NCBI GenBank assembly: GCA_016212295.1
Contig: JACRGO010000064.1
Span: 1-17,902, forward strand
From: Nitrospinota bacterium
GTDB lineage: Bacteria; Nitrospinota; Nitrospinia; JACRGO01
DNA: 17,902 nt
Direction: 5' to 3'
This document shows positions 10,898 through 15,959 of this stretch, one piece after another. A program made the translations under genes and the position numbers. The notes under the pieces were generated by a model. That model did no database searches and had not been told where the DNA came from. It worked only from the letters and a program-made list of their open reading frames with translations. Position 1 is the stretch's first letter; each line of letters starts with the position of its first letter.

Positions 10898-11668
10898 CTA
10901 AAAACGGACGAAAAGGCCGGCCACCGGACCTGAGAAGCTGGTATCCACAAAGACATTGGAGTGGTCCACTTTCAATTTTATGTACCTGTATCCGCCATAC
11001 ACCCCCATGCTTGGAATTGGTGAAAACTCCATTTGGGTCTCGGCGTCAATAAAATGGTTTCCGGAATAGGCAAGCCCTCCCGCGCGGCACACAAGGCCCA
11101 GGAAATCCGCCAGGGCCACTCGTCCCCGGAGTCCCACGGTTGGAATTGGAAGAATGGCGGAATCGTTTTCAGACACCCCCAGGAGCGGGTCTTTCATGCC
11201 CACTTCTGCCCGGATGGTCTTGACCTCCGCCTCAACGCCCAACTGGACCCTGGCCGGAAGGTCGTCAAAATTTAAAAAATAATAGGAGAGGCCGAGGTCC
11301 AGGATGTCGGCGTCCAGATAGCTCTCCACCTGATGTCCCGCGCTGAAATTTTGTCCGTTGAAGGTTATAGAGGAGCCAAGGGGCTTGCTCCCGTTGAATC
11401 TCAGCGGCAAATAGGACGCCTCGAGCCGCAGGTCCCCATATTGGAAGGCCGCTTCCAGGGTCCCTGCGTTGTCCCTGCCAAAACCAAGGGTATTGTCCAC
11501 GTCCATTCTGCTCCCGCCCATGCTCCCGGCGCTGACACCGAATTTTCCAGAGGGTTTTAGGCTTATTAATCCCCCCTTCAGGGAAAAGGACTCATCCGCC
11601 TTTGCCGCTGTGGAGGCGAAAAGAAAAACCGAAGTTAAAAACGCGATAATGAATTTTTCACGGCGCAT
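10898..11668 (-). CDS. Secreted outer-membrane beta-barrel protein, function unknown
   Basis: The 256-residue protein begins with a classic signal peptide: MRREK, a hydrophobic stretch (FIIAFLTSVFLFAS) and a likely cleavage after AAKA before DESF. The mature part alternates polar and hydrophobic residues with aromatic girdles (LEAAFQYGDLRLEASYLPL, LGLSYYFLNF, GVYGGYRYIKLKV) and ends in GLFVRF. A terminal Phe is the usual Bam-recognition signal of outer-membrane barrels. The size suggests an 8-10 stranded barrel similar to OmpA/OmpW-like or Lom-like porin-type proteins, but no specific family is recognised. The start at 11668 has a strong ribosome-binding site (GAGGA, 7 nt spacing). The open frame extends to 11821, but the added residues would bury the signal peptide. 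It diverges from the leader-RNA/oxidoreductase unit, and a tandem 8-bp repeat lies between them. Confidence 0.8.
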   Translation of the reverse strand: MRREKFIIAFLTSVFLFASTAAKADESFSLKGGLISLKPSGKFGVSAGSMGGSRMDVDNTLGFGRDNAGTLEAAFQYGDLRLEASYLPLRFNGSKPLGSSITFNGQNFSAGHQVESYLDADILDLGLSYYFLNFDDLPARVQLGVEAEVKTIRAEVGMKDPLLGVSENDSAILPIPTVGLRGRVALADFLGLVCRAGGLAYSGNHFIDAETQMEFSPIPSMGVYGGYRYIKLKVDHSNVFVDTSFSGPVAGLFVRF

Positions 11669-11835
11669 ATTTTTATCCTCTAAGTTTTTTGACGCTGATG
11701 CTAAAAAAGCACTATTTGTGCCAGATGAATTCAATGAGGACAGAGCACGGTTTTTGTCCGCAACCAAATTAAAAGTATCTCCGCATGTGAAGAAATATTG
11801 CGCCTTTTTTGAAAATTTCAAATATTTTTGGCGAT

Positions 11836-11853: not shown

Positions 11854-11892
11854 CAATAGTACCGTAATCTCTTTGATTTTAAAAGAAAAATT

Positions 11893-11920
11893 TTGAAATT
11901 CCGATACAGTAAATTATAAT
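11893..11920 (+). promoter_or_regulatory. Sigma70-type promoter of the structured leader RNA
   Basis: TTGAAA (11893-11898), a 16-bp spacer and a perfect TATAAT (11915-11920) predict transcription starting around 11926-11928, exactly at the start of the structured segment. The region just upstream is AT-rich. Confidence 0.7.
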
Positions 11921-11925
11921 TAGTG

Positions 11926-12080
11926 CCTGGGCGCCCCCCGTTCAGGCGGTGTATGGGTTGCCGCTAACGGAGAATTTTTGCCGTATAAGAAATGGTGATT
12001 TCCACCATGCGGTAAAGAAACAAATGGAAAACTTTAAAAGATTGTAAAGGAAACGCCCAAGCCATTGGGCTTTTTTTATT
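11926..12080 (+). ncRNA. Structured ~150-nt leader RNA, candidate riboswitch or attenuator
   Basis: Between a good promoter and an intrinsic terminator nearly every segment can pair. P1: TGGGCG (11928-11933) with CGCCCA (12054-12059). P2: CCGTT/AACGG (11938-11942 with 11966-11970) enclosing GCGG/CCGC (11946-11949 with 11961-11964). P3: TGCCG/CGGTA (11979-11983 with 12010-12014) enclosing ATGGTG/CACCAT (11992-11997 with 12003-12008). P4: CTTTA/TAAAG (12032-12036 with 12045-12049). P1 uses the same bases as the 5' arm of the terminator, so the two are mutually exclusive. A 5' alternative hairpin GCCTG/CAGGC would free the terminator. I recognise none of the conserved cores of known riboswitches, 6S, SRP RNA or tmRNA. 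An independent small RNA is the alternative. Pairings are read by eye, without energy calculation. Confidence 0.6.
12055..12080 (+). terminator. Intrinsic terminator in the oxidoreductase leader
   Basis: The stem is GCCCAA (12055-12060) with TTGGGC (12065-12070) around the loop GCCA, followed by seven T and then ATT. It ends about 15 nt before the ATG at 12093, so any transcript reaching that gene must read through it. This suits a regulated terminator. Confidence 0.85.
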
Positions 12081-12092
12081 AGAGACCCAACC

Positions 12093-15000
12093 ATGAGAAT
12101 CAGGGAAATCCCTTACAACTACACCTCCTTTTCCGACCGGGAGATCGTGATCCGCTTCCTCGGAGAGGACATGTGGAACACGCTGAACGATTTACGGTCA
12201 AAACGCCGCACAGGCCGCTCGGCCAGGATGCTCTTCGAGGTCCTCGGCGATTTGTGGATGGTCTCGCGGAACCCATTTATTCAAGAAGACCTGCAAGCCG
12301 ACCGCAAGCGCCTCGCCTCCCTCCTGGACGCCATGGGGCGGCGCCTGGACCAGATCGAGGCGCGGGCCGATTCCAATCCCAATGTCCTTCTCCTGGCCGG
12401 CAGGGCCAGGGAGGCGGTGAAGGAATTCGCGGACCGCTTTTCAGGCCATGAGGCCCTCAGGGCAAAGGTCCTACGCTCCCTCTCCCGCGCAACTCGGCGC
12501 GACAACGTGGATTTCAGCGGCGTCGCCCTGGTCTCCCATGTGACGGACGCCACGGACTGGCGCGTGGAGTGTCCCTTCGCGGTTGTCTATCCGGAACTGG
12601 AGGAGGAGACGGCGGACATCGTCAAAAGCTGCATGGAACTGGACTTCACCATCATCCCGCGCGGCGGCGGCACCGGATACACTGGCTCCGGGGTCCCCCT
12701 TGTTCCCGAAACCATTGTGATCAACACGGAAAAGCTGGACTTCATAAATGCCGTGGAGCTTATGAAAATCCCTGGCCGCGATGAGCCGGTCCACTCCATC
12801 CGGGCCGGCGCGGGCGCCGTGACCAAGCGCGTGGCCGAGGCAGCCGAGGCCGCTGGAATGGTCTTCGCCGTTGACCCCACCTCACAGAACGCCTCCACCG
12901 TCGGCGGGAACATAGCCATGAACGCTGGCGGCAAAAAGGCCGTGCGTTGGGGCTCCACCCTGGATAACCTGATCTCGTGGCGCATGGTGGGCCCGGACGG
13001 GCAATGGCTGGAGGTGGTCCGCCTGAACCACAATATGGGAAAACTCCACGACCTGTCCGAGGCCAGGTTTCAAGTCACCCGGTTCCAACGGGACGGCAAG
13101 ACGCCGGACGGAGAGCCGCAAGCCGTCTCCATCCCCTCTGACAAAATCCGGAAGCCGGGCCTGGGCAAGGACGTCACCAACAAATTCCTCGGCGGCCTGC
13201 CAGGAGCGCAGAAGGAGGGCTGCGACGGGATCATCACCAGCGCTGTCTTCGCCCTGCATCCCAAGCCCGCCCACATCCGCGCCGTGTGCCTGGAATTCTT
13301 CGGCCACGACCTGGCCAAGGCGGTCCCGGCCATAGTGGAGATAAAAAATTATCTGGACCAGGGACCTGACGCCGGGTGCGCGGGACTTGAGCACATGGAT
13401 GAGCGTTACGTGAAGGCCGTTGGATACAACACCAAGGCCAGGCGCGGGGAGAGGCCCAAGATGGTCCTGCTTGTTGACGTGGCGGGAGACCAGGAGGAGG
13501 CCGTGGACAAGGCCGCCTCCCACGTGGTGGGCCTTGCCAAGGCCAGGGGCGGCGAAGGGTTTATCGCTGCCAGCCCAAACGCCAGGGAGCGGTTCTGGGC
13601 GGACCGCGCCAGGACGGCTGCCATCGCGGCGCACACCAACGCCTTCAAGGTGAACGAGGACGTGGTGATCCCCCTGGAACGGCTGGCCGAGTACACAGAG
13701 GGTATCGAACGCATCAATATCGAGCAATCCGTGGCCAATAAGCTGCGCATGGCCAGGGCCGTCATCGACTTCCTCAAAGGGGACGCCTTCGCCGCCCATC
13801 TTCCATCCGACTGTCACGCCGGTTCCGAGAGCGAAGCCCTCATAGAGGACAAAAAAGCCGCGGCCTTGTCCCTCTTGAGGGAAGTGGAAAAACGCTGGGA
13901 GAAGATCATTGCGAATCTGGACTCTCCAATAAGCGGTCTGCCGGACCTGGCCCCAAGCGAGGAGCGGCTCCCCTTGTTCGACGGCGCGGCCCAAGACCTG
14001 GACCTTGCCGGGGAGCCGCTGATCCGCTCCCTGTTGCGGCGGGACCTGCGCGTCTCTTACCGGGCCGAGGCGGAGCGTCCCTTGAAAAATATCTTTATAG
14101 GCGACCTCTGGGCAGGAATCCGCAAGGAACTGGACCACATCCACGCCGCCCATCGTTCGAGCCGCCTCTTCGCGGCGGTCCACATGCACGCGGGAGACGG
14201 AAACGCGCACACCAATATCCCGGTAAACTCCAACGATTATGAAATGCTGAGGGAGGCGGAACGCATGGTGGAGCGGATCATGAGCCTGGCCGTCAGCCTG
14301 GGCGGGGCCATCTCAGGCGAACACGGCATCGGCGTCACCAAGCTTCATTTCATGGACCAGGACAAGGTGGAGGCCTTTGCCAGTTATAAGGAAGCCGTGG
14401 ACCCCAAGGGCCGCTTCAACAAGGGAAAACTCCTCCCCGGCGCGGGCGTTGAGCGGGCCTACACTCCTTCACTGCGCCTGGTGCAGCAAGAGGCCCTCAT
14501 CCTCAGGGAGAGCGCCCTGGGCGACCTGAACGACGGCATCAGGAACTGCCTCCGGTGCGGCAAATGCAAGGCGGTTTGTTCCACGCACGCGCCGCGCGCG
14601 AACCTTCTTTACTCGCCCCGCAACAAGATACTGGCCGCAGGACTCATCATCGAGGCTTTTCTGTACGAGGAGCAGACAAAGCGCGGGATTTCCATCCGCC
14701 ACTTCGACGAACTGAACGACCTCTCCGACCACTGCTCCGTTTGCCGGAAATGCGTTGTCCCTTGTCCGGTTGACATCGATTTCGGCCTTGTAACCATCAG
14801 CATGAGGGAGATATTGAAGTCCAGGGGCAAAAAAAAGGGAAACCTGGGCGCCAGGATGGCCCTGGGATTTCTCAAGGCGTCGGACCCCCGCGCGGTCAGT
14901 ATGGCCCGCAAGGCCCTGATCCAATGGGGGTATTCCGGCCAGAGGATCGGACACAAGGCGGCCAAGTCCCTTGCGTGGCTGGGGGGCAGCGGCGCGCCCG

Positions 15001-15959
15001 GCCCAACCGCCGGCAAGCCCTCCTTCAAGGACCAGATGGTCCATCTACTGAAAAGACCCTTGCCGGAACAGATACCTGATCTGGCCATGCGGGCCTTCCT
15101 GGGGATCGAGGACAATAAGACGGTCCCCATCCTCCGCGACCCGGCCAAGGCCAATGAAAACAGCGAGGCGGTTTTTTATTTTCCAGGATGCGGCAGCGAG
15201 CGGCTCTTCAGCCAGGTCTCCCTCGCGGTCCTGGCCCTGTTGCGCCACCTGGGGGTCCAGACGGTCCTGCCCCCAGGCTATCTTTGCTGCGGATTTCCAT
15301 TGGCCGCCTCCGGGGACAGGGACCTGGGACGTAGGACCAGCACCGCGAACCGGGTCCTATTCCACCGCGTGGCCAATACCCTGAACTACCTGGACGTCAA
15401 GACAGTGCTGGTCTCGTGCGGGACATGTCTTGGCCAATTGGAAGGCTATGAATTCCACAACATCTTCCCAGAATGCCGCCTCATGGACATCCATGAGTAT
15501 CTAATGGAGAAGGGAGTGCGGACAGAGGAGAAGTCCGGCGCGAGCGCCTATCTTTTTCACGACCCTTGCCACTCCCCTATCAAGAGGCGCGCCCCCCTGG
15601 AAGTGGCGGAAACGTTGCTGGGAGGAAAGGCGGTCCTGTCCGGCCGCTGTTGCGGGGAGGCAGGGACCCTGGCCGTGTCAAGGCCGGACATCGCCAACCA
15701 GATCCGCTATTCCAAGGAAGAGGTTCTGCGGGAAGGAATCGAGCGGACCGTGAAGGAAGGAAACGCTCCCGGCGGGGCCTGCAAGGCGTTCACCGCCTGC
15801 CCTTCCTGCCTGCAAGGGCTTTCCCGCTACCGGGAAACCAGCGGCCTGGAGCCGGAGTTCATGGCGGTGGAACTGGCTGAAAGGGTCCTTGGAAAAAATT
15901 GGTTGAAGGATTTCATCCGCGCGGCGTTGCGGGAGGGAATCGAGAAGGCGCTGTTGTAG
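12093..15959 (+). CDS. Giant FAD/Fe-S oxidoreductase (DUF3683-type; D-lactate/glycolate dehydrogenase-like fused to a CCG Fe-S module)
   Basis: One 1288-residue chain joins what are separate subunits in glycolate (GlcD/GlcF) or D-lactate oxidation. Residues 1-60 are a DUF3683-like N-terminus (MRIREIPYNYTSFSDREIV). An FAD-binding type 4 domain follows (about 165-305; IPRGGGTGYTGSGVPL, then DPTSQNASTVGGNIAMNAGG). Next is an FAD-oxidase C domain (about 420-795; HMHAGDGNAHTN, then SGEHGIGVTKLHFM). Two 4Fe-4S motifs come after: C819/C822/C825/C829 and C881/C884/C887/C891 with following Pro. Two CCG domains complete it (FYFPGCGSE, GYLCCGFP, HDPCHSPI, GRCCGEAG). It probably oxidises a 2-hydroxy acid and passes electrons through Fe-S clusters to quinone or another carrier; the substrate is inferred. 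No signal peptide is present. It is visibly richer in GC than the neighbouring genes. The ribosome-binding site is weak and a structured leader with a terminator precedes it. There is no operon partner. Confidence 0.9.
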   Translation: MRIREIPYNYTSFSDREIVIRFLGEDMWNTLNDLRSKRRTGRSARMLFEVLGDLWMVSRNPFIQEDLQADRKRLASLLDAMGRRLDQIEARADSNPNVLLLAGRAREAVKEFADRFSGHEALRAKVLRSLSRATRRDNVDFSGVALVSHVTDATDWRVECPFAVVYPELEEETADIVKSCMELDFTIIPRGGGTGYTGSGVPLVPETIVINTEKLDFINAVELMKIPGRDEPVHSIRAGAGAVTKRVAEAAEAAGMVFAVDPTSQNASTVGGNIAMNAGGKKAVRWGSTLDNLISWRMVGPDGQWLEVVRLNHNMGKLHDLSEARFQVTRFQRDGKTPDGEPQAVSIPSDKIRKPGLGKDVTNKFLGGLPGAQKEGCDGIITSAVFALHPKPAHIRAVCLEFFGHDLAKAVPAIVEIKNYLDQGPDAGCAGLEHMDERYVKAVGYNTKARRGERPKMVLLVDVAGDQEEAVDKAASHVVGLAKARGGEGFIAASPNARERFWADRARTAAIAAHTNAFKVNEDVVIPLERLAEYTEGIERINIEQSVANKLRMARAVIDFLKGDAFAAHLPSDCHAGSESEALIEDKKAAALSLLREVEKRWEKIIANLDSPISGLPDLAPSEERLPLFDGAAQDLDLAGEPLIRSLLRRDLRVSYRAEAERPLKNIFIGDLWAGIRKELDHIHAAHRSSRLFAAVHMHAGDGNAHTNIPVNSNDYEMLREAERMVERIMSLAVSLGGAISGEHGIGVTKLHFMDQDKVEAFASYKEAVDPKGRFNKGKLLPGAGVERAYTPSLRLVQQEALILRESALGDLNDGIRNCLRCGKCKAVCSTHAPRANLLYSPRNKILAAGLIIEAFLYEEQTKRGISIRHFDELNDLSDHCSVCRKCVVPCPVDIDFGLVTISMREILKSRGKKKGNLGARMALGFLKASDPRAVSMARKALIQWGYSGQRIGHKAAKSLAWLGGSGAPGPTAGKPSFKDQMVHLLKRPLPEQIPDLAMRAFLGIEDNKTVPILRDPAKANENSEAVFYFPGCGSERLFSQVSLAVLALLRHLGVQTVLPPGYLCCGFPLAASGDRDLGRRTSTANRVLFHRVANTLNYLDVKTVLVSCGTCLGQLEGYEFHNIFPECRLMDIHEYLMEKGVRTEEKSGASAYLFHDPCHSPIKRRAPLEVAETLLGGKAVLSGRCCGEAGTLAVSRPDIANQIRYSKEEVLREGIERTVKEGNAPGGACKAFTACPSCLQGLSRYRETSGLEPEFMAVELAERVLGKNWLKDFIRAALREGIEKALL

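Follow-up and report, generated by a model that had tools for sequence, protein, structure and literature searches.

Does the intergenic region in front of a very large FAD/Fe-S oxidoreductase gene of a Nitrospinota bacterium carry a leader RNA that controls the gene, and if so, is it a riboswitch or an attenuator? The window, i.e. the whole stretch of DNA that was analysed (17,902 nucleotides), comes from a draft genome of 3.74 Mb, in which it is contig C13. The intergenic region of about 420 nt runs from a divergent minus-strand gene (start ~11668) to the start of the oxidoreductase gene at 12093, and no plus-strand gene directly precedes the leader. The features that define the setting are as follows.

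10898–11668, minus strand: divergent gene with a sub-cutoff match to an outer-membrane beta-barrel family
11873–11909, plus strand: start-proximal repeat core TTGATTTTTAAAGAAAAACTTTGAAATTCCGATACAG, found genome-wide by own-genome search
11893–11920, plus strand: promoter-like TTGAAA-16-TATAAT, with the –35 within the repeat core and the –10 just outside it
12055–12077, plus strand: intrinsic terminator GCCCAA-GCCA-TTGGGC + U7 (GCCCAAGCCATTGGGC + U7), from sequence, folding and a background scan
12093–15959, plus strand: oxidoreductase of 1288 amino acids with domain matches to DUF3683, FAD-binding, Fe-S, CCG and DUF3400

Promoter-like sequence and terminator

The promoter TTGAAA-16-TATAAT named by the initial annotation is present in the sequence. 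TTGAAA occupies 11893–11898 and is followed by a 16-nt spacer and by TATAAT at 11915–11920, giving an 11/12 promoter match. Dinucleotide shuffling of the intergenic region equalled it in 5 of 1000 cases. It is not an isolated feature, as TTGAAA is part of a repeat core that matches the genome in 36 places. A promoter at 11893–11920 is plausible from these letters. Conservation across the copies of the repeat does not extend to the –10.

The terminator claimed ahead of the gene was borne out as well. The segment 12050–12080 folds at –10.1 kcal/mol, and only 3 of 200 shuffles fold as well. It lies about 135 nt past the promoter, and 15 nt separate its U tract from the ATG at 12093, a start codon fixed by the DUF3683 match to residues 2–113. 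An intrinsic terminator between promoter and start codon is one mark of a transcription attenuator, and by sequence the leader has one. Since the upstream neighbour is divergent and no co-directional gene lies directly upstream, this terminator can be reached by, and act on, only RNA whose synthesis began between the two genes.

How unusual this arrangement is was assessed with a background scan of stretches totalling about 647 kb with 488 genes, using crude ORF calling and strict hairpin criteria. A terminator-like hairpin 5–40 nt before the start was found for 4 of the 488 genes. Judged by eye, one of the other three comes right after an upstream gene's stop codon and two lie inside coding sequence. 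The hairpin at 12055–12077 is the only one of the four hits that neither an upstream gene end nor coding sequence explains. A terminator this near a start is rare in the genome. Read from the sequence, its position supports either attenuation of the leader or the end of a small-RNA gene at this site.

Fold of the leader

The leader spans about 150 nt from promoter to terminator. Folding gave the following elements, all on the plus strand.

11928–12059: P1, pairing 11928–11933 with 12054–12059, in competition with the terminator
11938–11970: P2, a two-tier hairpin
11975–12018: P3, a two-tier hairpin with the cap AUGGUG-AUUUC-CACCAU
12032–12049: P4, a weak 5-bp hairpin
11949–12047: possible 32-codon leader ORF with a GTG start and a weak ribosome site, from ORF reading; it may be due to chance

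P2 and P3 are good local hairpins, two-tiered as had been claimed, and are present in the P1 fold and in the terminator fold alike. The description of four independent stems, on the other hand, could not be maintained. P1 occupies five of the six bases of the terminator 5' arm, and therefore P1 and the full terminator are mutually exclusive and the stems are not independent; P4 is weak. The fold of the whole leader has a z score of –2.1 (3 of 200 shuffles as good). Without the terminator the z score is –1.4 (15/200), and shuffling of the body alone, next to a fixed terminator, gave a fold as good in 30 of 500 cases. The evidence for leader structure beyond chance is thus weak, and the body fold is close to chance.

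The P1 fold is more stable than the full-terminator fold by 1.7 kcal/mol, with modelled populations of about 0.88 for the P1 state and about 0.12 for the terminator state. The overlap of P1 with the terminator 5' arm looks like a switch that could keep the terminator from forming, but shuffled bodies compete with the terminator as strongly as the real body in 65 of 500 cases (13%). Nor is P1 a clean antiterminator: with P1 paired, a 4-bp hairpin and the U6 after it (12060–12071) remain.

The attenuator reading

The best explanation is that the oxidoreductase gene has an attenuator-like 5' leader, to which we give about even chances. Transcription would start at or just after the repeat core (~11914–11927), and much of it would stop at the intrinsic terminator at 12055–12077, the gene being expressed by read-through. 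The terminator 5' arm could pair either with its own 3' arm, forming the terminator, or with 11928–11933, forming P1, and this choice could set the level of read-through. That promoter and terminator work, and that read-through is regulated rather than constant, we infer from the sequence. This reading is favoured by a terminator that beats shuffles at a rare position 15 nt before the start, by the divergent neighbour, by the 11/12 promoter and by two folds within 1.7 kcal/mol. Against it stand its finding in one genome only, the near-chance body fold and the 13% of shuffles that compete equally. Of the original proposal of a riboswitch or attenuator, the second half fits the anatomy of promoter, leader and rare terminator 15 nt from the start; the first half, a new riboswitch, is not supported, as neither a family match nor conservation was found. 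The layout resembles transcription attenuators generally in having a promoter, a leader, a terminator directly before the ribosome site and a putative rival pairing of the terminator 5' arm. It differs in that here there is no identified sensor and no conservation, and the competition is matched by 13% of shuffles. At present it amounts to a single attenuator-like leader of local interest. Should it be regulated, it would show how a newly acquired metabolic gene comes under the control of a leader absent from its homologues.

Distribution of the gene and of its leader

The oxidoreductase carries DUF3683, FAD-binding, FAD-oxidase, Fe-S, CCG and DUF3400 domains. At E 1e-100 it was found in this genome only among 100 relatives searched (77 of the class). 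Its best relatives are in Gammaproteobacteria; those listed are mainly from Gamma-, Beta- and Zetaproteobacteria with 46–61% identity, together with a few Magnetococcales and Geobacter loci. These matches suggest that the gene was probably acquired horizontally.

From 11920 onward the leader is single copy in its own genome by sequence search, and 60 class genomes gave only short matches of about 17–43 bases. A single-sequence covariance model, R1, was built from the leader and found only itself with confidence in 77 class genomes. Its best match outside the window (E 0.025, 1 of the 77 genomes) is antisense in an ORF start and a second one is only a terminator; both were taken as chance. Phage records gave nothing resembling the leader, and plasmid records two chance-level matches. 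At 80 loci carrying the orthologous gene, neither R1 nor sequence comparison of the upstream regions detected a relative of the leader, and no strict terminator lies closer than about 120 nt to the gene. A looser hairpin lies at about 90 nt in one locus, and in another the upstream sequence is too short for a judgement. R1 was also run on 14 whole genomes of orthologue carriers and found none, an empty answer without a positive control. Conservation in homologous leaders, by which the initial annotation would have judged its proposal, is hence absent at the 80 loci, which is a weak test as the orthologues are 46–61% identical and come from distant bacteria.

These results bear on the main rival, an unregulated accident. 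The acquired gene would then have landed behind an existing promoter and terminator, or behind a small-RNA gene, and would be expressed by low constant read-through, the hairpins having no switching role. In its favour are a gene found in just one of the class genomes searched, with its best relatives in Gammaproteobacteria, orthologues without such a leader and a body fold close to chance. However, a terminator so near a start is rare in this genome, and no leader relative was found in the class to show that the leader predated the gene. We consider this reading possible, though doubtful.

Leader peptide, known RNA families and candidate ligands

Attenuation by a leader peptide, in which a ribosome on a short ORF (11949–12047 or 12024–12047) would control terminator formation, is unlikely. 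The 32-codon ORF stops 7 nt before the terminator stem, where a ribosome would cover the 5' arm. However, its ribosome-binding site is weak, it has no regulatory-codon run and no serine codon, and eight ORFs of at least 4 codons occur within the same 167 nt.

According to a proposal by Price et al. (2018), proteins of this type in Burkholderia and Herbaspirillum provide phosphoglycerate dehydrogenase activity in the synthesis of serine (PMC5764234). The proposal was drawn from mutant fitness, and complementation of an E. coli serA mutant failed (PMC5764234). The DUF3683 FAD-linked oxidase of Burkholderia phytofirmans and Herbaspirillum seropedicae has the same domains as the protein here (DUF3683, FAD domains, 4Fe-4S, CCG and DUF3400). 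In contrast to that system (PMC5764234), the genome here also keeps a canonical serA-like gene, recognised by a Pfam match and by reading of the protein sequence, and therefore the DUF3683 enzyme would not be the sole enzyme of this kind. The presence of both genes may mean a redundant or alternative entry to serine synthesis. As the orthologous enzyme was proposed to act in serine synthesis, the earlier guess of a 2-hydroxy-acid substrate can be sharpened by analogy toward serine-pathway compounds, which would be the first candidate ligands. A regulated leader would also open a way into the still unproven part that DUF3683 oxidases may play in serine synthesis.

The initial annotation saw no known riboswitch core, and the Rfam search agreed. 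With the Rfam 15 covariance models at gathering and permissive thresholds, the leader gave only chance-level matches. T-box leaders of serine genes have been described for Paenibacillus polymyxa (PMC8002221), and they share with the present case a position before a gene possibly of serine synthesis. They differ from the leader here, for which the T-box covariance model gave no match within 11860–12110 even at E 10. 6S RNA (RF00013) was rejected: the likeness is a structured RNA of 150–190 nt, whereas the leader fold here is multi-branched, the leader gave no match, and the genome has its own 6S RNA at C177:678-856.

It is possible but very unlikely that the leader is a metabolite riboswitch of a class not yet described, with a ligand such as serine, phosphohydroxypyruvate or 3-phosphoglycerate. 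All the positive evidence for it is anatomical, a two-state pairing with the terminator, beside the serine-synthesis proposal for the orthologous enzymes. Against it, Rfam gave no match, and searches of 77 class genomes, of 14 whole orthologue-carrier genomes and of its own genome turned up no other copy, so the canonical serA does not share the leader. A new riboswitch class would be recognised by a conserved core and covarying stems across genomes, and the genomes and loci searched yielded no second member. Very unlikely too is a lineage-specific leader that evolved in front of the acquired oxidoreductase of the serine pathway and responds to a metabolite of that pathway by changing from P1 to terminator or back.

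Repeat core at the putative promoter

The segment 11866–11919 belongs to a repeat family found by own-genome search. With up to 3 mismatches allowed, the core TTTGAAATTCCGATACAG matched 36 times and the reversed control 3 times. At up to 1 mismatch, the core TTGATTTTTAAAGAAAAACTTTGAAATTCCGATACAG has 26 matches in this genome versus 2 in a genome of the same genus. Of 15 copies in the 647-kb sample, 14 point toward a gene on their own strand, at a median distance of 14 nt. Some copies of TTGATTTTTAAAGAAAAACTTTGAAATTCCGATACAG touch the start codon (L041 and L156) or the ribosome site (L031). Since cores normally adjoin gene starts, the 183 nt between the window copy and its gene start is unusual and leaves room for a leader. 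On its upstream side, TTGATTTTTAAAGAAAAACTTTGAAATTCCGATACAG is joined to different repeats. This core may be a promoter, a 5' UTR element or a mobile repeat.

Two promoter assignments were tried for the family and given up. Many copies contain TAAAG-N15-TCCGATAC, which resembles the sigma-28 promoter consensus; this was dropped as copies in relatives are without the –35 part. As a general sigma-70 –35 the core fared no better, a –10-like hexamer occurring at 16 nt in 3 of 27 copies and at 17 nt in none, while several other spacings gave as many or more.

A related core, TGGAAATTCCTATACTAT, has 89 matches and 0 control matches. The copies read in this genome (e.g. L049, L051 and L058) are joined to a GC-rich CCCCCCTGGCAAGGGGGGATCAAGGGGGG repeat, and 14 copies from the 647-kb sample have no orientation preference. 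Between the divergent genes of L039 (C137:6075-6267) there are two cores within 200 bp of each other that point outward, the flank being of the CTTTAGTCACTTTAG type in one and of the CATTCGTGGTTCC type in the other; the pair could be either divergent start elements or the ends of one element. In the window, TTTTGAAAATTTCAAATATTTTTGGC lies at 11808–11835, upstream of the promoter, and a near-repeat of it precedes a degenerate core copy in L163.
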